Of a stretch of DNA of 64,000 nt, positions 5,490 to 44,736 are shown piece after piece. The translations under genes were made by a program, and so were the position numbers. Below the pieces are notes generated by a model. It was not told where the DNA came from, made no database searches, and was given only the letters and a program-made list of their open reading frames with translations. Position 1 is the first letter of the stretch; each line of letters begins with the position of its first letter. The stretch is taken from NCBI GenBank assembly GCA_949130485.1, contig OX422200.1, positions 1,216,604 to 1,280,603 of the forward strand, given 5' to 3'. The DNA comes from Agelas oroides. Its lineage: Eukaryota > Porifera > Demospongiae > Agelasida > Agelasidae.

Positions 5490-22944
<17,455 letters not shown>

Positions 22945-23865: not shown

Positions 23866-26800
23866 ATGACTGTAGCCAGGAGAGTGGCTCTTCTCCTGAT
23901 TGCATCTGTCTGGAGTTGCGTCCTCCCTGATACAGCTGCTCAAATGGGAGCCAACCCGAACTTTGGAGCATTACCAGCTCAGAGTGAGGTCATATCTGTA
24001 ACGACAGCTGCTTCAGATGGCCTGCGTGGCTATTTCAGCATTCCACGCTCTTTTATCAACACGGTGCTACCAGACTCTACACCCTATGGTAAGCATGTGT
24101 GCATAGTTTGTGAAATTATTTGTATCTGTTTGCCAGTTTATTATGCAATGAAGCACTTCTAATCCTGCTCATACTACTGTTTGTATGGACACAGTCTTGA
24201 ACCCAGACCCCTTTGGAGGGGGGTTTGGGTTCAAGACTTGTGTGGACCTTGCTCCCTAATAAAAACAAACAAACAAAGTCGGCCTTGGAATACTTAGACA
24301 ATTTGATCATGTAGCCACTGTATGAAAGTTACTGTTTCTTCTTCCTGCTCTCATTCCCAGAGTTATTCACTCCTTGGCTCAGTGGGATAGTTGGGGGCCT
24401 GCTTCCCAGCTCTCGCACAGACAACAGTAGTAGTAATGCCACTCCACCACCACTTGCCGGAAGCATTCAGGAAATTTTGACACAGGTGCATAGCAACTGC
24501 CTAGCAACTGGTAACACGTTGCTAGTGAATTTCCTACCAACACCTTCCCCCTCCTGTACCCTTTCCCCATTTCCCCTCCCTCTTTCCCTCCTCCCCCATA
24601 TCACACGTAAAAAAAATCAACAGTCATCTTCGTGGTACCTGTAGCACTGGTATTAAGTGTTCATTACTGACTTTTTTTGGTGCTAATTTTGCTGTTAATT
24701 TTTAACAGTATGCAAGTACTTCCATTCTTCTAAACTTGCCAAGAAAATATCACACCTCAAGCCCCCACACACATTAAGTGTTCATTACCGACTTTTTTTT
24801 GGTGCTAATTTTGCTGTTAAGAGTATGCAAGTACTTCCATTCTTCTAAACTAGCCAAGAAAATGTCACACCTCAAGCCCCCACACACATACATGCGTGGA
24901 ATTAGTCTCATTCCCAGTCTCTCTATTTTCATTGCTTGCAGTATAAAAAGGCAACAAAAGCTGGGAGCATGAGAAGCTGGGAATGAGACTAAAGCAGACA
25001 GTTCCCCCAGGAACTGAGTCTGAGTTTTGAGAACGTGCTTACAGAATTAGGAGTTGAGCTAAGTTTTTGCACACAGTCATTATCACCATGGTTACATGTG
25101 GAATAGCCAATTGGTGTAAGGTCCATGCACACTACACCAATTAGTGTGCTCTTGCAAATTTTTTACAGGTTTAAAATTAGAACACTATCATGTCATAAAG
25201 TTACTATATCACTTTTTACAGTGGCAGAGATGTAGAACTGTCAGGTACATCATCTATGGCGGTACCTGAGTATGTCAGGCATCTCTTCTTAACCCTCATC
25301 CTCTAGTTTATGACATGGCTTGTTCCAGTGTTTGTGGTGGTAGCCATTGGCCTCTTGTTGGCTGTCCTCTTCACTTGTGGAGGCTGCTGCCTCTGCTGCT
25401 GCCGACTGGGTGGACAGTGTGGAGCTAAAGCACATGAGTACCGAAGCAAGTACCAGGGTGTCAAATGTCTGATCTTTTCCTTCATCCTTCTGTTGTCCAT
25501 CTCCATGATCTTGTGAGTGGAAACTGCAGTAAGCTATATCCATTGCCATAGTGACAAGGAAAGTGAATTAATAAGATGATGTAATCAAGGTACAGAGTTC
25601 ATCTGTTACCATGCCCACTTAGCTCTGTGATGTAATGTTATTTATGTACATACATACCACCATATCAGGATAATGCTTCATACCACCTGTCATGTGACTG
25701 CTTTGATCACATAGCTATGAAGAAAGGAATCACCATTGGAACAAATCAGGATGTGTAGGAAACACAATACCATTCTTGACTTTAGATACATTTTCTTCTC
25801 CCCTTTCACACTGTCTTACTTGTAGTGGATTGGCCAGCTCAGTCAAAGGAGTTTGCTATGGCCAAGTAATCATGTGTATGACATTCTCTCCACATGCAGT
25901 CTTGGTGTTGTGTTTGGTTTCGTAAGCAACCAGAAGTTTTCTGACAGCATCAGCGGGTTTGAAAACACCGCCAGCTCTGCCCTACAAGATGGAGTTAATT
26001 ACCTCAATGATACTCTCAATGTGAGGGAGAAAGGGAGGGAGGGAGGGAGGGAGGGAGGGAGGGAGGGAGGGAGGGAGGGAGGGAGGGAGGGAGGGAGGGA
26101 GGGAGGGAGGGAGGGAGGGAGGGAGGGAGGGAGGGAGGGAGGGAGGGAGGGAGGAAGGAAGGAAGGAAGGAAGGAAGGAAGGAAGGAAGGAAGGAAGGAA
26201 GGGAGGGAGGGAGGGAGGAAGGAAGGAAGGAAGGAAGGAAGGAAGGAAGGAAGGAAGGAAGGAAGGAAGGAAGGAAGGAAAAAAAAAAATAAAAAATGAG
26301 GGTGAGGGACAGAGAGAAAAAATACTATTCATTTTCTTTATTCTGCAGCAAGTAACGTTCATTACAACAGACCAATTCAATGTGGCAGCAGACAGAATTG
26401 TTAATGACATTCAGAGTATGTATATGTTCCTATGATATTAACTAGTGATCTAGTCTCATTCCCAGACCCTTGGTAACTGTACCGAGGGTCTGGGAATGAG
26501 ACTGGTGGTGATCTGTAGCAGTTAGTAGCAGTGCATGTGCGTTGATTTTGCCAACATGCACTAATCAGGAGTGATTTATACAAATTGTGTGCCACAGACA
26601 TAGGGACAGTACTGGGTGGTCCAATACGCAACCAGTTGGAAGATGACGTCAACTCTTCATTTCAGCAAATTACCAACATTCTTAACAGTAAGTGATGTTG
26701 CTATAATCTACCAAGAGTGCATAAGAACGGGCGGCTTCACGTGTAACTCTAATAGAAGCCTGTAGTACAGTCAAAATTATTGAACCATACTAAAAATAGA

Positions 26801-29800
26801 ACACCCAGTCACATGCTTATCAACAATGGCTTATGCAGCATGGGCAGTGTATTTTCAGTACTGGCGGTAAATTCCGTCTGGTTTCAATTTAGTTTTAGTA
26901 CGGTTCACTAATTTTGACCGGACTACGGGCTTCTATTGGAGTTACACGCTCTTACTCTAGCCGCCCATTCTTATGCACTCTTGGACAAGTTGAGTAAATT
27001 TTCTTGACATCATAATTTGTGAAGACAAAGGAACTGGGAGATGTAATGCACTACCTACCTCTGTAGCAATTGAGATGATTCGTGATGCAGCTCACAATGT
27101 CAATACCACGGTGACACAGCTCTCAGAGCTCCAGACCCAGCTCAACGTCTCCCTCTATGAGCTCAGGGCGGGACTTGACAACCTTTCAATGAATTGCACA
27201 GCTGAGACATGCGACTTGGTGCCATCCCCTGACAGCGTCGATCTTGCAGTAGACTGGAGTTCAGTACGTACATCCACAGTGGAAAACTCTAGATATCATA
27301 GGACCTGCGTACAAGGCTAGCATATTGCTGCTTCTTGAAGACTATCTATAAAGTGCAGTTGAAATGTTGCATTAAAAGTTTGACGGAAAAACAAAATTGT
27401 TGTATACTACATTTAATGGTCTGTATGTGTTATTGCACATGTAGGTTGGGAATTTAACAGACGTCTTCGATGCTCTGGACGAGATAGATGTTGGTGGAAT
27501 CCGGAGGGTTGTTGGAAACGCAACTCAAATCTTTAACAACATTGATACTTTACTTACTACACAAACAAGCAACATTGGTAAGGAAAAGTGTGTAGTTTGT
27601 TACTCTGAAACTGAAAACAATATTTTGTTATTTCAGACATCAGTTCCGTACTCAATGGATCTCAGGAGCAAATACAAAACGTCATTGGTGGTGTACAGAA
27701 CACTATTAACAACGTATGTGAGACAAGATCATGAATCTAACCAAAAATTGTTATCAAGGTGTCTCTACTGTTGATTGCAGCTAGTTTGCATCCTCATATA
27801 CCTCCAGATAATATCTGATGGGGGAGTGGTTGACCAAGTGCAAGGTGGGATTACCACTTTTCTTGGCAGCAGTGGTGTAGTGCTGATGTACGATAGAATC
27901 AGGTACACGACATCATTGTTACATCATTGTTACATCAGTGTTACACATTCTTGTATACTTGAGGATACCCTGCCTCAGTGGAAACATGAATATGAATAAG
28001 TATTGGATATACTATATAGCTATATGAGGAGCCAAGAGCGCATAAGGACGGGTGGCTAGAGTAAGAGCGTATAACTACGTAAAAGTCGAAACCGGGCGGA
28101 ATTTACCGCCAGTACTAAAAATAGTAACACACCCTGTGAACGCTGCGTAAACATAAGCCGTTGTTGCAAAGCATGTGACCGGGTGTTCTATTTTTAGTAC
28201 GGTTCAATACTTTTGACCAGACTACAGCTTCTATTGGAGTTACACGCTCTTACTCTAGCCGCCCGTTCTTATGCGCTCTTGGAGGAGCTTATACTTCGAG
28301 TATAGGTAGTATTTATACCACATTGAGACAGTAAACTATAACTTGATTTTGTGTGAACAGAAGGAAGGCCTGGTATATTTTATCACATGAATGACATGTC
28401 TAGCTACCTAAGTAGACAGAGGAGGAGGTTTCCACTGACATTGTGACCCCACCTAGCCTCGTACCCAGGCTCCTCCCCTGCAGTACGAGGCTAACCCTAC
28501 CTAAGTATTGGCAATACATTCAAGAGAACTGAGTATAAGTAAGCAACAATGTTGTTTGTGGCTGGGTCACATGATCTATTGTGTACGTACTGTATTGCAG
28601 GTATGGAGTGGCTGCAGGGCTGTTCTCGCTAATTGCACTTGTTGGACTGATTTTCTCAGTTGGGGCGTTCTGTGGAATGTTTGGCTATTCACGTCAAGCC
28701 CAAACATACGAGAGGAGCTCCGTCTCCCACTGTGGAGCAATCCTGTTGCTGCTGTAAGCCACATGTCGCAATCATGCTAGTGGCATAGTAGATGGGCAGA
28801 AACTGTACACCTGAAGCCAGTTTCAGAATAAGTATGGCTAAGATCACTCACCCAATCCCAATTCCACACCAGTCTGAGAATGTGAGTGCATCCTCTTTAG
28901 CACCATTGTGTGTGTTCTTCTCACCTAGGGGTGTGGCAGTATGCTTTCTCATAGTTGGGCTGCTGCTGACCCTCACTGCACTCTTCTATCTACTTGGGAC
29001 AGCCCTCCAGATGGTCTGTAATGATGTCAGTCCCCCCAACTATGTCGTGTTCCGTGAAGTGACAGACAAGCCCTCACTGTGGGGCGGGAGGACACTGGTT
29101 GGGGCCGTCACGGCAAGCACCATTGGCCTCCCTATCAACATCAGCCTTACCAGCTTCCTCAGGTACACCTTGATGACGATGAAGAAAAAATTGATATATA
29201 CCTCATCTCTACCTACGTACCACTTCTTAATGTACAGTCATTGGGTGTTTGCTGAGTATGTTTGTAGACTCTCAGTTTTCTGAGCCTCGGGGTGAGACTA
29301 GGTGTGTCTGTGCTACCATAAAAGGTCATAGTACACATACATACTCTGAACACTTATACAGCAGCACATACTCTAATGTCCTGCTGTATAAGTGTTCAGT
29401 TTGCTTGTCCCTGTGACAGCTTAACCTTGAGTACCCAGCTTTAATCTAAGTTTGAGAATAACCACATTTTCCCCCAAATGAAGTGAGTGTGAGAGCAATG
29501 GACCACTGTGGCAAGCACTACAGGCAGACAGGATCATCGACTTGAACGCCACCCTGTCCAGCTTCACAAGAGTAAGTAAAGGTGTTGACCCTTTTGTAGT
29601 GGCCCTTGACAACATTTTCTCAACCAGACCTGCCTCACTATCCCTTTCTTTCCTCTGACCATGTTTTCCTACCAAACCAACTTGTGAGAAGAAAATATTT
29701 TCCTTTTCCTACGTAGCCTGCATGAGGCTAGTCTGCATATATAAGTTTCTAACACACTTTTGAAGGTTCCAAAGTGTACTTCCAAAGTGTGTACTCATAT

Positions 29801-32800
29801 TATTGGCTCCTCACTATCTTACAGCCACTTGATAACCTCTCCCTGGGAGGCAGTATTATGCTGCCACTGGTTTTATCTGGCGGGGTGATTCCTGGACAGA
29901 GCAGAAATATGCTGGAGAGCATTCAAATGAACCTTGTGGGCGCCATTAATTTCACAGACTATGAGATGCTGAACCAAAGGACAGTCAACTTTGACATAGA
30001 CGAGCTGTACAATAACTTGACAAGGATTGCAGTACTGCAGTTAAACATGGTAATGATATGAAATTTTTTTAAAAATTCTGTAACTCACCAATATCTAAAC
30101 TGCAAATCTGACACACATTATCACAGTGGTACACAGCAGGCAGATATAGGCATGACAAAATCATATGTATACTGCTTCTCATAACGGTTGCTGCATAGCT
30201 TGCTCAAGGTAGCCACTCATAGCCTCCAACAACTTATGGTGCATTGATCCTCTCTGTCTGCATGTTCAAGGTAGCCACTCATAGCCTCCAACAGCTTATG
30301 GTGCATTGATCCTCTCTGTCTGCATGTTCAAGGTAGCCACTCATAGCCTCCAACAGCTTATGGTGCATTGATCCTCTCTGTCTGCATGTTCAAGGTAGCC
30401 ACTCATAGCCTCCAACAACTTATGGTGCATTGATCCTCTCTGTCTGCATGTTCAAGGTAGCCACTCATAGCCTCCAACAACTTATGGTGCATTGATCCTC
30501 TCAGTCTGCATGTGGTTACAAGACAGTAACAAGTATTGTTTGAGCCATCTTCAGTGCAGTGTGCGAGTGAAAGTCTAAAAAGAAGCAAACTTGATGTACT
30601 TGCTTTCAATTTCTATATGATTACTGAGTGAACCCCACACACTAATATGCTTGTGTTCTTTCTCACTCAGAGCATGGAGGCTGAGGCAAATGATACACTG
30701 ACAGTGCGAACTACTCTAGTGAATGTCAACTGCACACTGCAAGAAATCCAAGAACAGTCGGTACGTTTTCTTGCTCTCCTTGATTCCTCTCCTCCTTCCC
30801 TTACCTCATATTCAAGAACCACATCTTATCAATCCCTTACTGCAGGATTACCTCCAGGAAAACATTACGGTACTGCAGACAACCACACAGAACATCTCTG
30901 TGAGTCTGAAATAGACTAGGATTGATATCTACACCACCACATGATTCCTCCTTGCATGTCAACTATATGCAGGTGTGGGTGAGGGAGGCTCTCGGGGAGC
31001 TAGATGCACTTGTTAACAGAACCAGGGATGTTATTGCTAGGGTGAGTTGAGGGAGTGGGGCCAAGACTTGAGTGAGCACAGTACAAGCCGTGTAGCCTGA
31101 ATTCAAGATAAGTGTCCCACCCATTCCAGGCTCTGATTCTAGTTTGAACTAGCCTCGTACCCATCCTATGAACAGTCTGGGTATGAGGCTAAGTTTGAAC
31201 ACTCGAACACCACCATGAATACCTTTGATTATGTTATTTAGGAGTCTCAGCTGTACATTGGAAGACAAGTTGAGAATGTTAATGACTACCTGGATTATGT
31301 TCAGTATCAGGTGAGTACCCCTGGTAGATGCAGGTATAATTACTGTCAAATACTTGTTTGGTTTGATTCCATACTGCTTTAGGCTCAGAATGAGGTTGGT
31401 CGGTGCCACCCACTTTCAGCAATATACAGTGGCATGTATATTGCTATCTGCAGTGAGACATTGGATGGACTGGTACGTATGTTATCACATGTATACTGGT
31501 AATAGTTACTTTAGAAGTCTAGTTTGCAATTGTTATTCTGCCTCATTATACAACTCATTTCTCTCTGTCTTCCTCTGTTTTTTCTGTGTTTCTCTCCTCT
31601 TCTCTCACTGTCCCCTCTCTCAGAATGGCCTCTGGTTCAGTGTTGGGTGGTGTGTCATTTTCTTTCTCCCTGCCATCATCTTTGGTGTGATCGTCACCAC
31701 TTACTTTAGAAGAGCATCATCAGTTATCCACGACTTCACTGAAGATGACATGTATGGCCTCACATTGCTTGCACACAACAAAACTATAACACACATCTTC
31801 TGAGTCCTATAGTTCTCTCTCTCCCAAGAGAGAGAGAGAACTATAGAGTGGAGAGATAGCCTTGTTCCAGGCTCTCGTGCTGGGATGGGAACAAGGCTAG
31901 GTAGAGAGATAGCCTGGAAATGAGGTCATTAGTGTACCACGGATGACTGACATACCAGCTTTACAGTCATCACACAATTGTAGCAATGTATGCACAAAGT
32001 ATGACAGTTTCTATATTTTCTAAAACTCATAATCATTGTGTAATAGATTAATCTGTTTTCTTACAACAGCTCTCAAAGTGAAGTATACCCAAACAATGGG
32101 ATAGACTACAGGAGGTGAGTGATGTAAAACCATACTGGGCAAGAACACTGATACATCGATAAACTCTTGGCACCGTAATCACGCATTGTTAAGCGCTGGA
32201 AAGGAAAAAGTGCATAATAGCAAGATACGTACATTTAGTATGGGCTTTATTTAGAGTTATGCAGTGACCACATCCAAACCAGTGAGCATAATAGCAAATA
32301 TGTGCTTATAAACGAAATGCGTTTAACAATGTGTGAGTACGGTGTTACCAAATCAAAATGACAGAAGAGTTTCACTTGCGTAAAAACAGAAGCATTCAGT
32401 ACCACAATTGTAAGGGTTGGTGCGGTTCCATAGCAGTCCTAGCTCGGTGATCAGAGATTGCCAGTTTTAACATTCTCTTGTATATCCATCTTACACCAGT
32501 GAACATTAGTGTTAAAACTAAAATACATTTTAGTAAGGCCTAAAACCTTTTAGTACTAAAACTAAAATTGATGCTGCCTTAGTCCATTAATTAAAAACTA
32601 CAACTAAACTAATTTGAAATCACCAAAAAATAGTAGTTAACTACAACTAAAAGTACCGATACTAACCCTTTTTAGATTTAGTAATTAAAACTAAAACTAA
32701 ACTAACAATTTGAATCTGTAGCCTAATTAAACTAAAACTAAACTAGTAGTCCGAACATTAAACTAAAACAACACCTGTGTTTTTACTTGATAATGTTACT

Positions 32801-34569: not shown

Positions 34570-37500
34570 ATGAAAACGACCATAATAGCCACTCTCCTTG
34601 TGACTGGGTCTGTCTGGAGTTGCATCATCCCTGGTGCAGCTACTCAGAGGGGAGCCAACCAAACATTACCAGCTCAGAGTGATGTCATATCCGCAATGAC
34701 AGCTGCTTCAGATGGCCTGCGTGGCTATTTCAGCATTCCACGCTCTTTTATCAACATGGTGCTACCAGACTCCACACCCTATGGTAAGCATGTGTGCATA
34801 GTTTGTGAAATTATTTGTATCTGTTTGCCAGTTTAGTATGCAATGAAACACTTTTGATCCTGCTCATACTACTGTTTACATGAATACTGCTCCCCTAACA
34901 AAAAAAAGTAATAAACAAAGTTACAGCTTTGGAATTTTTTCTTTAAAAGTAAGACATTTTGGTTATATAGTCACTGTGTTGTCTGTACAAGAATTACTTT
35001 TCTTTCTTCCTGCTCCCATTTTCAGAGCTATTCACTCCTTGGTTCAGCAGGCTAGTTTGGAGCCTACTTGCCAGCTCTCACTCAAATGAGACAGAGAGTG
35101 GAAGTCAGGAGCCTCAACAGCTGTGTGACAACAGCACTGCACCACCGCTTGACAGCAGCATTCAAGAATTTCTAACACAGGTACGTAGCAATGGGTAGGT
35201 GCAGAATAACTATAGTAACAGATAGGTTGCTACCAACACCCCTCATCTTTCTCTCCTTACTTCTACCTCTCTCTTCCCCTTCTCTCCCTCCCCCCATGAG
35301 GTAATAAAAATAAGTCACATACATTATTACATGTTAAAAAGGCAACAGTTTACTCCAAGAAACAACAGGTATTAATTTGTGGGATATTCATATGACATAA
35401 GTGTATATGACCCACTGTGTTGCTGTTAAATGCGAGTCATCTCATTTTCTCCAACTTGGCAAGAGAAAATGTCACACCTCAAGTCATGTTCCCCTAGAAC
35501 ACTTTCCACATCACTGGATCGGAGTTCACATTTCCCAATGGAGTGGGATTTTAAAATATAATAGTTGTGAGGTGAAACTGGTCACAAAGATCAGTGGTGA
35601 AGACTTTGCAAACACCTATTATCACCAGCTGCAGAATTAACTGATTTTGATGGGTCTATGTACACTACACCAATTTATGCCGATTGGTGTGCAATTACAA
35701 TTTTTTTCAGGTTAGCAGTATGCTATTAGATGTAATTAGGGCGCAACTAGACTTTGCACATACTGTAGTATATCAAGAAATAAAATCAAATGTATTTGCT
35801 CTGCATGTAATGACTGCATGGGCAAAAGATTGCGAAAAAGATCAAGACTCACAACTTTAGATGCACACATTTATTGTTACATCCTGATATACAATAAAAA
35901 GTTTGTTGGACTGTTTACAGTACAAATGCTAGCCATTGTATGAGAGAGGTAGGAGCAGTAATCCACTGTGCTGCTAATTAAAGATCCCAAACCAGAGATG
36001 CTTCAAAACAAGTAATTTCACCTCACAGGTACACTGAGATACATAATTTCCATAGCAAGAAATGTGGGGTGCATGTTCTATAGCAAGTACACCAATAGAA
36101 ACACATTAGGTGTTAAGTGCTCTAACATGTAAACCTTGGTACACTAAACTCTGTAATTTCTGTATGCATCTTGGGGTCCAGTTTAAAATTGGTGAATTAA
36201 CACACATGCACCTCCTCCTACCCTCTCCTCCAGTTTATGAGGTGGTTTGTTTCAGTGTCTGTGGTGGTAGCCATTGGCCTCTTGTTGGCTGTCCTCTTCA
36301 CTTGTGGAGGTTGCTTCCTCTGCTGCTGCCGACTGGGTGGACAGTGTGGAGCCAAAGCACATGAGTACCGAAGCAAGTACCAGAGTGTCAAATGTCTGAT
36401 CTTTTCCTCCATCCTTCTGCTGTCCATCTCCATGATCTTGTGAGTGGAAAGTTTTGAAGCCATTGCCATAGCAACAGGGGAAGTAAATTACTACTTCCAG
36501 TTAGTGTGATGATGAAATTGAGCATGTTACCAACTTATCTTTTCCCTCTGCTCTCTCACATGGATTATCATAGTGGGTTGGTGACCAATTCACCATGGTA
36601 ACAGTGTGTGTGTGACATTCTCTCCACCTGCAGTCTTGGTGTTGTGTTTGGTTTTGTAAGCAACCAGAAGGTTTCTGACAGCATCAGCGGGTTTGAAAAC
36701 ACTGCCAGCTCTGCCCTACAAGATGGAGTCAATTACCTCAATGATACTCTCAATGTGAGGGAGAAAGGGAGGGAGGGAGGGAGGGAGGGAGGGAGGGAGG
36801 GAGGGAGGGAGGGAGGGAGGGAGGGAGGGAGGGAGGGAGGGAGGGAGGGAGGGAGGGAGGGAGGGAGGGGAAGAGAGAAAAAGGAAATGTTACTCTATTA
36901 TTAATTTTTTTTCTGGCCTGCAGCAAGTGACATTCATTGCAACTGACCAATTCACCGTGGCTACAGACAGAATTGTCAACAATATTCAGAGTATGTAGTA
37001 GCATGTTCCTGTGATGTTAACTTAGCACTTTGGTGATCCTGTACTAGTACATGTACCTTGTGTTTGCAAACACTGATTGTCAATGATTTGACACTGACCA
37101 ACACATCGTTCTCTGCCACAGACATAGGGACAGTACTGGGTGGCTCAATACATAACCAGTTGGAAAATGATGTCAACTCTGCATTCAATCAAATTACAGA
37201 TGTTCTTAACAGTAAGTGATGCTTGCTGTAACAAGGACCAAATGGACTATTCAGTGTTCAGAGTTTGGAATGAATCTGCAGCTCACTTATACTAGCTAGG
37301 GTTTGGAATAACTGCATGATAAACACTGTTCCCTAGAAAGAAGCTAGGAGATGTAACGTGTTAATATCGCTCACTACCTCTGTAGCAATTGAGATGATCC
37401 ATGATGCACTGTTCCCTAGATAATGTAAAAAGACAAAGAAGCTGGGAGATGTAACATGTTTATATCACTATCTCTGTAGCAATTGAGGCAGTGTATGATG

Positions 37501-40500
37501 CAGCTCGCAATGTCAATACCACGGTGACACAGCTCTCAGAGCTCCAGACCCAGCTCAATGTCTCCCTCTCTGAGCTGAGGGAGGGACTTCACAACCTCTC
37601 AATGAATTGCACAGCTGGGACATGCGACTTGGTGCCATCCCCTGACAGCGTCGATCTTGCAGTAGACTGGAGTTCAGTACGTACATCCACACTGGAAATG
37701 TCTAGATGTCGGTTCTGAGACAGTACCTACGTAGCCTCATTCCAGGCTCCCCCGCTTCGGAACAATGAACCCCACCATCACGATTGCCATGTTTGCATTC
37801 CGGAGCGGGGGAGCCTGGGAAGGAGGCTGGTGCCTACAATGCACACATACATGTCAGTAAGGCTTGGTATGTAACCTTAAACCATGCAGCTTGTGTTAAG
37901 GTTCAAAAATTTGCATGCTATAGTTAACAGGGCGTATGTGATATTCCATGTGCTACTTGTGTGTAGGTGGAGAACATGACAGGTGTCTTGGAAGTATTGG
38001 AGGAGATAGACGTGGGTGGAATCCGGGTGGCTATCAGAAATGCAACCCAAGTCTTCAACAACATTGATGCTTTACTTACTGCACAAACAAACAACATTGG
38101 TAAGGAAAAGTGGTGTGGTTTGCTTTAAGAAGTAGTGTTTAGTAATATTTCTTTTGTCATTTCAGACATCAATTCTGCGCTACTTGAATCTCAGGAGAGA
38201 ATACAGAATGTCATTGGTGGCGTACAGAACACTATCAACAATGTGAGTAAGAAAAGATATCCATCCAGAGCTTGATATCAAAATGCTTGGGTATTAGGAA
38301 TACCGATCACAGCTAGTTTACGTTCTTGCATACATACCTCCAGATTACATCTGATGGGGGAATAGCTGACCAAGCGCAAGATGGCATTACAGCTTTTTTT
38401 GGCAGCAGTGGTGTAGTACTGATGTACGATAGAATCAGGTACACGACATCATTGTTACATATATTATACGAGTGTGGTAGTTAGATATCAGTAGTGTGTG
38501 AGATATATATGTTTTGTCTTTCCCAGGCTTCCTACCATCTACTTTTTTGATTGCTTTTTGCAGTATGCAAAAACAATGGGGAAAACCCGCATCATCACAT
38601 GAGTGACATAAATTAGCCTTATACCCGAGGAGGCAAAGTGACTTTTCCTCCTCCAATATGGTCTGGATACGAGGCTAGACATAAATATACGTAGACAGAT
38701 AGGGAACAGGTCCAGTGCCTTGTTTATTTAGCATTCATGGCTAATCATTCAAGTAGACTGATCGTAAGTAAGTAACGAGGCTGGATGACGTGATCTATTG
38801 CGTGCTGTACTGCAGGTATGGGGTGGCTGCTGGGCTACTCTCACTGATTGTGATTGTTTTGGTGATCTTCTTGGTCGGGATGTTTGGTGGAATGTTTGGC
38901 TACTCAAGAAAAGCTCAACCATTTGAGAGAAGCTCCCTCTCTCACTGTGGAGCAATCCTGTTGCTGCTGTAAGCCTATTCTCCCACACACACACACACAT
39001 GGTCATGTTGAGTGTCATAGTGGGTGTGTAGATAACGAATAGGAGTCTTGATTACATTCTTTTCTGCATCATTGTTTGTGTTCTTCTCAGGGGTGTGGCA
39101 GTATGCTTTCTCATAGTTGGGCTGCTGCTGACTTTCTCAGCACTCTTCTATCTACTTGGGACAGCCCTCCAGATGGTCTGTAATGATGTTAGTCCCCCTG
39201 ACTATGTCGTGTTCCATGAAGTGACAGACAAGCCCTCACTGTGGGGCGGGAGGACACTGGTTGGGGCCGTCACGGCAAGCACCATTGGCCTCCCTATCAA
39301 CATCAGCCTTGCCAACTTCCTCAGGTATGACAGTTAAAGAAAGATTCATTCCTCACCACCTCATCCACCATTTTATTTTGTAGTGGGTGTTTTAAATACT
39401 GTTCTCATGTCATGCTAAAAACATTAAGTATTTTGTTCTCAAGCCCTAGGCTACCTGTAGAATAGGTCATAGTGCACATACATACTCTAAATAACTGTAA
39501 CTTAACTGTTGTCCAATGATAACATTCAGACCAGTTGTCTTCCCTGACAAATTAACCAATCCTAGCTGCACCGTACATATCATCTCTGAAATGACCACCA
39601 TAATACTCCCCCCCCCCCTCCCAAATGAAGTGAGTGTGAGAGCAATGGACCACTGTGGCAAGCACTACAGGCAGACAGGATCATCGACTTGAACACCACC
39701 CTGTCCAGCTTCACTAGAGTAAGTGAAGGGGTTGACCCTTTTGTAGTGGCCTCTGGCATCCTTTTTCTCACCAGACCTGCCTCACTATTTCCTCCTTGGT
39801 TCTCTTCCTTCCTCCCTTCATCCTCCCCCCACAGAACCACATTATGTTTGCATTAGTATTTGCATACGTATGGTTTTGGTATCAGACCCCAAGTTGCACT
39901 TTCAAAGTGCGTACTTATCTCATTGTCCTACAGCCACTCGAAAATTTTTCTCTGGGAGACAGTTTTACACTACCACTGTTTTCATCTGGTGGGCTGATTC
40001 CTGGACAGAGCAGACATAGGTTGGAGGGTATTCAACTGAACGTTGTGGCCGCCATTAACTTCACAGACTATGAGAGACTGCTGAACCAAAGAACGGTCAA
40101 GTTTGATATAGAAGTGGTGTACAACAACCTGACAAGGATTGCATCACTGCAGTCAAATATGGTACCTACATTAATTAGTTATGCTACACTGTTATCATAA
40201 GCATGTTCACAGATGCTGACATTTTCCGTGTCATGACAGCAAACAATAGTTGTAGAGAGAGAGTGTGAACAACTCACCAATATTGTTCTCATGGCTCTAT
40301 CTAGATTCTAGGTAACTTAATCTATATGACTTTTTGTACTACTGTGTAATGCACCAAATTAGCAGTTTGCTGCTTCCCATAATGATTACATAGGATGTTT
40401 CAGCCACCTCTACACCTCATCCCACTGCAAGTCCTGTCTCCAGAACTGATCCCACTACAAGTCCAGTCTCCACAACCGACAGCACTACAAGTCCAGCCTC

Positions 40501-43500
40501 CACAACTGACAGCACTACAAGTCCAGTCTCCAGATCCGACAGCACTATAAGTCCAGCCTCCACAACTGAGAGCTCTACAAGTCCAGCCTCCAGATCTGAC
40601 AGCACTACAAGCTCAGTCTCCAGAACTGACAGCTCTACAAGCTCAGTCTCCAGAACTGACAGCACTACAAGTCCAGTCTCCAGATCTGACAGCACTACAA
40701 GTCCAGTCTCCACAACCGACAGCACTACAAGTCCAGCCTCCAGATCTGACAGCACTACAAGTCCAGCCTCCACAACCGACAGCACTACAAGTCCAGTCTC
40801 CACAACCGACAGCTCTACAAGTCCAGTCTCCACAACCGACAGCTCTACAAGTCCAGTTTCACCCACCTCCATAACCGACAGCACCACAGATTCAGCCTCC
40901 AGACTCGACAGCGCAAGTGCAGTTTCAACCACCTCCACAACTGACAGCACAGCCTCTATAACTGACAGCACTACAGATTCAGCCTCCAGACTCGACAGTG
41001 CAAGTGCGGTTTCAACCACCTCCACAACTGACAGCACAGCCTCCAGAACTGACAGCACTACAAGTCCAGCCTCTATAACCGACAGCACTACAGATCCAGC
41101 CTCCAGACTCGACAGCGCAAGTGCAGTTTCAACCACCTCCACAACTGACAGCACAGCCTCCAGAACTGACAGCACTACAAGTCCAACCTCTATAACCGAC
41201 AGCACTACAGATCCAGCCTCCAGACTCGACAGCGCAAGTGCAGTTTCAACCACCTCCACAACTGACAGCACAGCCTCCAGAACTGACAGCACTACAAGTC
41301 CAACCTCTATAACCGACAGCACTACAGATCCAGCCTCCAGACTCGACAGCGCAAGTGCAGTTTCAACCACCTCCACAACTGACAGCACAGCCTCCAGAAC
41401 TGACAGCACTACAAGTCCAACCTCTATAACCGACAGCACTACAGATCCAGCCTCCAGACTCGACAGCACAAGTGCAGTTTCAACCACCTCCACAACTGAC
41501 AGCACAGCCTCCAGAACTGACAGCACTACAAGTCCAGCCTCCATAACTGACAGCACTACAGATTCAGCTTCCAGACTTGACAACGCAAGTGCAGTTTCAC
41601 CCACCTCTATAACCGACAGCACTACATCCACAACTGATCCTACTACAAGTCCAGCCTTCATAACCGACAGCACTACAGATTCAGCCTTCAGACTCGACAG
41701 CGCAAGTGCGGTTTCAACCACCTCAACAACTGACAGCACAGCCTCCAGAACTGACAGCACTACAAGTCCAGCCTCCATAACCGACAGCACTACAGATTCA
41801 GCTTCCAGACTCGACAGCGCAAGTGCAGTTTCAACCACCTCCACAACTGACAGCACAGCCTCCAGAACTGACAGCACTACAAGTCCAGCCTCTATAACCG
41901 ACAGCACTACAGATTCAGCTTCCAGACTCGACAGCGCAAGTGCAGTTTCAACCACCTCCACAACTGACAGCACTACAAGTCCAGCCTCTATAACCGACAG
42001 CACTACAGATTCAGCTTCCAGACTTGACAACGCAAGTGCAGTTTCAGTCACCTCCACAACTGACAGCACTACATCCACAACTGATCCTACTACAAGTCCA
42101 GCCTCCATAACCGACAGCACTACAGATTCAGCCTCCAGACTCGACAGTGCAAGTGCAGTTTCAGTCGCCTCCACAACTGACAGCACTACATCCACAACTG
42201 ATCCTACTACAAGTCCAGCCTTCATAACCGACAGCACTACAGATTCAGCTTCCAGACTTGACAACGCAAGTCCAGTTTCAGTCGCCTCCACAACTGACAG
42301 CACTACAACCACAACTGATCCTACTACAAGTCCAGCCTCCATAACCGACAGCACTACAAGTCCAGTTTCAGCCACCTCCACAACTGACAGCACTATAAGT
42401 CCAATTCGAGACTCCTTTGTTATGGATGCAAGATTGAGAAGAGATGCAGAAGTATGTTCTATGCTGTTTCAATTCGGTCTTGTATGTTGTTGGGGTGAGC
42501 CTGAGTGTCATTGTGTGTGTGTGTGTCTTTCCAATCAGGACATGGAGATGGCTGAAGCAAATGACACACTGACAGTACTAGGTACTTTGATGACCATCAA
42601 CTGCACGCTGCAAAAGATCCAGAAACAGTCTGTAAGTCTCCTTCTCCTTTGTCATCTCCTCTCTCAACCTTTATTCGAGATCCACATCTTATCAATCCCA
42701 TACTGCAGGATTACCTCCAGGAAAACATTACGGTACTACAAACAACCACACACAACATCTCTGTGAGTCAGATATAAGCTAGGACCCATATCTTCTCCAT
42801 CATGTGATTCCTCCTTGTATACCAACTATACGCAGGCGTGGGTGAGGGGGGCACTTGGGGAGCTAGATGTACTTCTTAACAGAACCAGGGATGTTATTGC
42901 TAGGGTGAGTTCAGGGAGTGAAGGTATTTGAGTGAGTGAGTGAAATGTCCCATTTGCCAGATTGCCTCAATAGTTTGATCACTTGCTGAGTTCCATTACA
43001 ATATAAGAATAACAATAATGTACTTGATTATATAATCATGTAGGAATCAGAGCCTTTGATTAATATAATGTACCTTTGATTATGTTATTTAGGAGTCTCA
43101 GCTGTACATTGAAAGACAATTTGAGAACGTTAATGACTACCTGGATTATGTTGAGTATCAGGTGAGTACCCTGGTAGATGCAGGTATAATTACTGTCAAA
43201 TACTTTTGTTTGGTTTGATTCCATACTGCTTTAGGCTCAGAATGAGGTTGGTCGGTGCCACCCACTTTCAGCAATATACAGTGGTATGTATACTGCTGTC
43301 TGCAGTGAGACATTGGATGGACTGGTACGTAGGTTATCACATTTATACTGGAGAAAAATTGATTTAGAAGCCAGGTTCACTAATTGCTATTTTAGCTCTT
43401 AGCTCTTAGCTGTACATTCAGTCTGCATGAACTGGTATTGAAGATAATTCATTTAGAAGCCAGATCTGTTTCACCACACACCTCATCTTTCTCTTTCTCT

Positions 43501-44736
43501 GTCTCTCTACCTGTGTTTCTTCCTCTTCTCTCAACTGTTTCTCTCAGAATGGCCTCTGGTTCAGTGTTGGGTGGTGTGTCATTTTCTTTCTCCCTGCCAT
43601 CATCTTTGGCGTGATAGTCACCACTTACTTTAGAAGAGCACCATCAGTTATCCAACACCTCACTGAAAAAGACATGTAAGCCAGCAACTGTATACTCCAT
43701 GCATAAAGTAGTTCTCTCTCACTCCCCTAAGCATGGTGGATAAAGACCCTGGAATAAGGCCATCATGAATGGTATATCACTGTAAAAAGGTTTGGGTTAC
43801 TTCAACCATATTTTGGTCAGCTCAGTTGCATTCCTGTTGTGTGCATGACACAAAGTTCAAGGAATGTTTACAATTTGAACCAGGATGTAGTTGAGTGTAC
43901 GACTGACTATAATTATCACTTAATCACAATATTAAAGTATGACACTTGTATCTAATTTTTATGTATCTAGATCTAGTGTGTATTTTTGTTTTTTGACAAC
44001 AGGTACGATATTTACACAGATGGTGGGACAAGCTATAGGAGGTTAGTGTTCAGTATATGTATGTTACATTGAGATCACTGATTCAGAATCAAGCTGAGAG
44101 TAAGGTTTCACTCATGTAACACACTTGACTCAAACCTGTGTGTAGCTGAGGGAAGATACCCTAAGTAATCAGGAACCACTCGGCGTCTTTCCTGATGGAG
44201 AAGCGTCTCCTTGTAAAACAGACTTCTGACAGCACATACCAGGAGCTTGTGAACCACCATGTGGGACTCTGCCACATACTGAGTGGCTGTCAGGCACGAT
44301 GAAGCATTCGGTAGCACCTGTGCAGAGGATTGTGAGCTGGCCTTGGTTACTTCAGCAAGACGACACAGCACTTTTTTGGCGTGCAAATTAGTTGACAGTT
44401 TGCAGCTATGAATACAGTAAACTATGAATTTTTAACAAAGCCTGAGGATTCAGCTAAATGTCACCAGACCACCTCCTCACGGGGCCGGGGCGGGTGGGGT
44501 CTGGGCACAAGACTAGTTGTTACCTAGTAATAGGTCAGACTGCCAGCTTCCCACTTTCCTCTTTTACTTGTCATTTTTCCCACAACTGCAGGGAATCTAT
44601 GGCCCCTCTCTTCCAAGGAGTGTAAGTTATAAATCATTCTTACAACATAGCGTTATTATGACAACATAATCATGATATGTCATCTTCAATTTGCAGGGAT
44701 ATGGATTTGCCGCAAATTCCAAATTTAGACTGGTAG
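34570..44736 (+). CDS. PROM: prominin C with mucin-like insertion
   Basis: Coding exons: 34570-34783, 35026-35180, 36234-36439, 36634-36754, 36924-36990, 37122-37211, 37480-37676, 37967-38099, 38166-38242, 38344-38438, 38816-38968, 39091-39324, 39631-39718, 39934-40161, 40394-42451, 42539-42631, 42709-42762, 42836-42904, 43093-43161, 43235-43324, 43548-43675, 44003-44041, 44592-44621, 44697-44736. In frame throughout: 1575 residues, against 882 in prominin B. The signal peptide, five membrane segments and cysteine turn (CFLCCCRLGGQCG) are as in B. The difference is exon 15, a Ser/Thr-rich block of 686 residues placed in the second extracellular loop. Because that exon begins and ends in phase 0, skipping it would give an ordinary prominin. 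The C terminus is MDLPQIPNLDW, like VDLPHIPSTEW in B. Confidence 0.9.
36755..36870 (+). repeat. (GGGA)n starting at a splice donor
   Basis: Begins at the prominin C exon 4 donor (gtgagggagaaaggg), homologous in position to the repeat at 26021 in prominin B but less than half as long. Confidence 0.96.
37326..37490 (+). repeat. tandem duplication covering a splice acceptor
   Basis: Two copies of about 80 bases (AGGAGATGTAACGTGTT ... CTCTGTAGCAATTGAG). Each contains the acceptor and first bases of exon 7. Only the second copy leads into the full exon at 37480; the first would run to a stop at 37421-37423. Confidence 0.8.
37733..37832. mobile_element. hairpin element, ~100 bases
   Basis: TAGCCTCATTCCAGGCTCCC at the left and GGGAGCCTGGGAAGGAGGCT at the right, with internal ATTGCCATGTTTGCATTCCG shared with 18747-18889. 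Confidence 0.75.
38612..38678. mobile_element. minimal hairpin element
   Basis: TTAGCCTTATACCCGAGGAGG pairs imperfectly with CCTCC...GGATACGAGGCTAG in the prominin C intron 10. Confidence 0.6.
40394..42451 (+). CDS. Ser/Thr-rich mucin-like exon of prominin C
   Basis: One exon of 2058 bases with acceptor ttacatag and donor gtatgt, reading in frame from the neighbouring prominin exons. It encodes a block dominated by Thr, Ser, Asp, Ala and Pro. The first part uses short units like STTDSTTSPAS. The central part uses a 39-residue (117-base) unit including ASRLDSASAVSTTSTTDST and ITDSTTDP. Spacing of exactly 117 bases is seen at about 41105, 41222, 41339 and 41456. It has few hydrophobic residues and no cysteine in the repeat, as expected for a heavily O-glycosylated stalk. 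It contains no ATG until near its end, so ATG-based ORF calling misses it; the long antisense frame is a shadow. In prominin B the same intron holds only a 62-base minisatellite. Confidence 0.85.

Follow-up and report, generated by a model that had tools for sequence, protein, structure and literature searches.

A candidate mucin-like repeat exon in an extracellular loop of a sponge prominin

Three prominin genes and a repeat block

The window, a stretch of 64,000 nucleotides from the sponge Agelas oroides (positions below are those of this stretch; the host assembly comprises 259.3 Mb in 141 contigs), contains three neighbouring prominin genes, A on the minus strand and B and C on the plus strand. 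Between its exons 14 and 16, prominin C holds a block of Ser/Thr-rich tandem repeats with an open reading frame, which is treated here as a candidate exon 15 (Table 1). The gene model of prominin C was free of internal stops over its 21 exons, with GT/AG at the junctions. Full-length matches to PF05478 were obtained for prominin B and for prominin C without the block (4.5e-112, 376 bits, and 3.1e-111, 373 bits, respectively; curated cut-off 34.3). Hydropathy analysis of prominin C gave a signal-like segment (residues 3-24) followed by segments at 121-159, 173-203, 450-483, 491-533 and 811-840, corresponding to five transmembrane (TM) helices, which by the topology of the family would be accompanied by two large extracellular loops. 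The block is inserted after residue 686, between TM4 (491-533) and TM5 (811-840). When prominin C was cut at the block junction, its halves matched PF05478 positions 85-643 and 664-799 (of 799), so that the block interrupts a continuous domain. The original prediction for this DNA, of a phase-0 Ser/Thr/Asp-rich open frame in an extracellular loop of a real prominin, was borne out.

The block consists of 686 residues (199 Ser, 195 Thr, 82 Asp, 66 Ala, 41 Pro and no Cys among them), with a net charge of -53 and three N-glycosylation sequons. Its S+T content of 57%, together with the Pro (41/686), the lack of Cys and the repeats of 10 and 39 residues, is that of a mucin-like (Pro/Thr/Ser, PTS) sequence. 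A repeat unit of 39 residues had been predicted, which was correct for ten of the units, whereas the array as a whole proved to be composite, opening with 14 ten-residue units and also including units of 29 and 32 residues. Repeats of the mucin-like type often have no Pfam family, and a Pfam search with the 686 block residues returned no family at E 0.01; the claim is therefore limited to 'mucin-like' and does not extend to 'a mucin'. Dense O-glycosylation is a further mark of mucin-like domains; an exon of a polypeptide GalNAc-transferase is present in the genome (best match GALNT1, 3.7e-18), the hallmark being shown by one of the six loci inspected. As had been expected, the block lacks ATG for most of its length, the single in-frame ATG being at codon 677. 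The 1540-residue prominin C has a single R-X-[K/R]-R motif, RLRR, which lies near the end of the block and may be a proprotein-convertase site.

The block is absent from the two neighbouring genes, again in agreement with the prediction: the model of B has no mucin exon, and in A (assembled for its 3' half only, as 11 exons without a stop) the homologous position falls within one exon, where there is no intron. The description of B as a near-identical sister of C did not hold, the two being 81% identical (685/849 aligned positions). Of the 16 candidates scored in a protein search of the genome with the array, 11 were matches, all of them within the array itself, and in a DNA search the array was likewise the sole match; in both searches the best candidates only were scored. 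A pattern search of genome contigs for relatives elsewhere gave none: 18 stretches came up, none of which was confirmed.

Table 1. Positions of the candidate exon, its repeats and neighbours, and the prominin gene models in the window
Feature	Position	Strand	Remarks
Candidate mucin-like exon 15 of prominin C	40394..42451	+	2058 nt, 686 codons, phase 0/0, open frame
Exon 14 of prominin C, upstream neighbour	39934..40161	+	Ends in phase 0
Exon 16 of prominin C, downstream neighbour	42539..42631	+	Starts in phase 0
TAG opening the frame	40391..40393	+	Would be required as 3' splice site; very weak
10-residue (30-nt) units	40430..40849	+	SPVS(T/R)TDSTT-like, 14 copies
Anchor-to-anchor units	40898..42250	+	12 units: ten of 39 residues, one of 29, one of 32; SRLDSASAVSTTSTTDSTASRTDSTTSPASITDSTTDSA-like
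RLRR motif	42431..42442	+	Three residues before candidate exon end
Downstream intron	42452..42538	+	87 nt, open in the frame of the block; stronger in-phase donor after 42481; aligns with 3' end of the intron of B
62-bp minisatellite of prominin B	30204..30513	+	5 copies, no open frame; in homologous intron 30050-30670
Prominin C gene model	34570..43679	+	21 exons including the candidate exon; 1540 aa with the block, 854 aa without
Prominin B gene model	23866..31803	+	20 exons, 861 aa, no mucin exon
Prominin A exon across the homologous position	7884..8080	-	No intron or insert

Open frames, composition and indels in control arrays

Open frames were counted in 37 control tandem arrays of at least 200 nt, drawn from the window and from twenty 10-kb genome stretches; the counts omit the two pieces of the prominin C array. 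A fully open frame was present in 19 of the 37 arrays, and both strands were open in 10; among the 11 arrays of at least 500 nt, five had an open frame (9 of 66 frames). The open frame was accordingly rejected as proof of coding, since so many control arrays are open as well, and only 0.13 and 0.18 stops would be expected under neutral mutation of the unit. These results weigh against use of the block and favour a serious rival, to which we assign a substantial but minority probability, namely that it is an ordinary intronic minisatellite which is always spliced out; its frame would then be open because the period is divisible by three and the C/A-rich unit lacks the codons needed for stops. 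Separately, tandem repeats (periods 113 and 192) filled two of the twenty 10-kb samples completely.

The same counts bear on the opposite strand. A long antisense frame over the block had been pointed out, and it does exist (40417-42468, 683 aa), but frames of this kind are ordinary for the arrays of this genome, as the 10 doubly open controls show. As judged from controls, substitutions and phase, a real antisense gene is highly improbable: the antisense frame has no synonymous excess (12 vs 9.7 expected, P 0.24), and it is on the plus strand that the block fits prominin in both frame and phase.

The composition of the block sets it apart from the controls, its S+T fraction being 0.57 vs a maximum of 0.41 in any open control frame, and this in exactly the frame that prominin requires, which argues against an unused minisatellite. 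When the 30-nt unit was shuffled, 2.4% of frames were open and had S+T of at least 0.55; this is the figure for the one required frame, and it rises to 7%, less favourable to coding, if any of the three frames is allowed. Shuffling of the 117-nt unit gave no S/T-rich open frame in 4000 trials, a result that is not independent of the former, as the modules descend from the short unit.

The indel comparison also used 37 control arrays, selected by a filter different from that of the open-frame test, in which 36 frame-breaking and 9 three-fold indels were found per 438 mismatches. In register, the block had no indels in 85 mismatches (49 in the 117-nt part and 36 in the 30-nt part), whereas the controls predict about 7 that break the frame (Poisson 9e-4; bootstrap over arrays, P 0.007), again contrary to what an unused minisatellite predicts. 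The absence of indels is valid in register only, for the families of 117 and 30 nt, and does not extend to 40394-40429, 40850-40949 and 42359-42451. Where Tandem Repeats Finder (TRF) imposes a 30- or 87-nt period on the entire array, its rows show numerous gaps of 1-2 nt (for example, 29 and 6 over 40423-41560), because unlike modules are aligned together in them. For the 117-nt part alone the result was weaker (Poisson 0.018; bootstrap P 0.05), and the 10-residue units showed no synonymous excess (4 vs 3.5 expected, P 0.49), both of which count against coding. In the sense frame of the 39-residue units a nominal excess was seen (13 vs 8.4 expected, P 0.03, uncorrected); with an excess in only one of the two regions, the substitution-based test for selection is weak. 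The block is unusual in its S+T content and in its lack of in-register indels; the open frame alone is no more than chance would give.

Splice sites and history of the intron

Inclusion of the block would require the TAG that opens its frame to act as 3' splice site, and several observations on this site weigh against inclusion. The acceptor at 40394 scored 0.69 (median 7.4), with one of the 38 others in genes B and C scoring lower under leave-one-out, and it was the lowest of all 39 when the others were scored by the matrix that they had helped to train. As many as 28% of all AGs in the window scored at least as high. The acceptor also coincides with the stop codon that opens the frame, which in itself accounts for part of its fit. 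An acceptor that is weakest or second weakest is also what would be expected of an unused minisatellite. The donor after 42451 was moderate (5.0; 9 of 38 others lower). Of the alternative internal acceptors, the best-scoring, such as 40444 (4.63), are out of phase; one other phase-0 AG occurs inside the block, following its single GAG codon (there are no Lys or Gln and two Glu). The other exons measure 54-234 nt, compared with 2058 nt for the block, and this difference in size, together with the weak acceptor, predicts low or regulated inclusion.

The 3' side is more favourable, since the flank of the block is in frame and remains open down to usable phase-0 donors, which argues against an unused minisatellite. 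The frame from 40394 in fact continues past 42451, across the 87-nt intron, to 42766, and the donor after 42481, in phase by its position, scored higher (7.4 vs 5.0) than that after 42451. The block might thus be used with other ends, either spliced at 42481 or read unspliced through 42452-42538 into exon 16. We regard this as very unlikely, because the acceptor of exon 16 (42539) is good (6.25), splicing at 42481 would reduce the intron to just 57 nt, and 42454-42538 aligns with the 3' end of the intron of B (P 0.002).

The comparison with B, on the other hand, lends support to a block that is spliced out. The homologous intron of B has a minisatellite in the same place as the array of C, and this minisatellite is a different one and non-coding. 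The last 85 nt of the intron of C (the alignment just mentioned) are shared with B, and the stretch before 40394 aligns weakly with the intron of B (P 0.04-0.05); these findings, too, speak against exon use. Derivation of the repeat unit itself from the intron of B was unsupported (array vs intron of B, P 0.385). In the simplest history, the intron was common to B and C and different minisatellites grew in each, that of C in a readable Ser/Thr-rich frame.

The proposal that the block is an optional cassette was consequently upheld in part: its 0/0 phase and moderate donor agree with it, whereas the very weak acceptor, the frequency of open frames in arrays and the non-coding minisatellite in B do not. 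As judged from the sequence, an optional cassette is likely, with the unused intronic minisatellite as its serious rival. We favour, at somewhat better than an even chance, the reading that an intronic minisatellite has become an exon, an optional mucin-like cassette with probably low inclusion, which by analogy would serve as an anti-adhesive spacer on membrane protrusions. Taken over the two sense readings together (these ends or others), translation of the block is moderately probable.

Possible role, known systems and neighbouring sequences

Prominins shape microvilli and other protrusions and have been implicated in vesicle release. Localisation to such protrusions and binding of cholesterol are characteristic of the family. 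According to the favoured reading, a minisatellite in the B/C-type intron between the TM4 and TM5 exons would have expanded in C in an open Ser/Thr-rich frame. Inclusion would add 686 residues and skipping would give back an ordinary prominin, both being frame-preserving because the intron is in phase 0 and the length of the block is a multiple of three. The included block would form a Cys-free, acidic, probably O-glycosylated and disordered loop in a prominin of 1540 residues, and, with both ends held in the ectodomain, it would be expected to protrude like a bristle unless cut at RLRR. Such a loop could space membrane protrusions and lower adhesion between them, by analogy with prominin and Eyes shut acting against Chaoptin and with the mucin-like domain of CDHR5.

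Parts of this scheme have precedents. Alternative exons in extracellular regions, mostly frame-preserving, are described for prominin-1 (CD133) of Xenopus, mouse and human (PMC3108902), a five-TM prominin as is prominin C. In the parts of that source consulted no mucin-like repeat exon is mentioned, whereas the block of prominin C comprises 686 codons of repeat, the inclusion of which is predicted. The microvillar membrane protein CDHR5 has a mucin-like domain that is missing from some isoforms (PMC8691648). CDHR5 belongs to an unrelated family and the likeness is one of working only; it is a type I protein whose mucin-like domain adjoins the membrane, while the block of prominin C would occupy a loop between two TM helices. 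In fly photoreceptors, prominin and Eyes shut antagonise Chaoptin and separate microvillar membranes by anti-adhesion (PMC4021355); the Drosophila spacer is a separate secreted protein, in contrast to a spacer that would be built into prominin itself. Long disordered exon segments are known to arise from tandem repeats and from exonisation of introns, and repeats are also known to change the structure of genes between recent paralogs (PMC12457776, PMC2812944). These studies are genome-wide surveys, and a mucin-like prominin cassette is not among the cases in the portions consulted. Judged from titles, abstract openings and some passages, no mucin-like prominin was found in the literature; alternative extracellular exons are already known in vertebrate prominin-1, and the mucin-like block of prominin C would be new if used.

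If translated, the block would document how a non-coding minisatellite can turn directly into a large glycosylated ectodomain. Only one of the two tandem duplicates would have made this step, the other being a built-in control, and the case would be relevant to the control of protrusion spacing and adhesion in an animal that is not among the usual models. If the block is not translated, it serves as a warning, because tandem arrays in this genome commonly contain long open frames that are easily taken for exons. A more far-reaching possibility, which we consider improbable, is that gene C encodes a switchable prominin that spaces itself, with an optional loop, long, acidic and O-glycosylated, on protrusion tips and with cleavage at RLRR leading to a free-ended bristle or to shedding. 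Repeat number, if it varied between individuals, would then tune the spacing of protrusions or vesicles, and a tandem duplicate would have gained from a non-coding repeat an anti-adhesive function that flies supply by a separate protein.

Further observations concern the prominin genes themselves. A phmmer search of the PDB with prominin B gave no match at E 1. The whole-genome search with PF05478 gave 4 exon matches among 15 candidates, every one in prominin A or C; it did not list the exons of B itself and so misses real exons, and further prominins are possible. Two candidate last exons stand in tandem in prominin A (6138-6011 and 5645-5520, minus strand); TM5 is near-identical in them and the cytoplasmic tails differ, as for mutually exclusive terminal exons. 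The start of exon 7 of prominin C (CAATTGAGATGATCCATGATGCA) is partly copied within an intron of the gene, at 37383-37408, just upstream of the exon at 37480. Finally, the stretch at 37755-37838, also in an intron of C, resembles another non-exonic stretch far upstream (18814-18897; 64% in translation), perhaps as members of a dispersed repeat.

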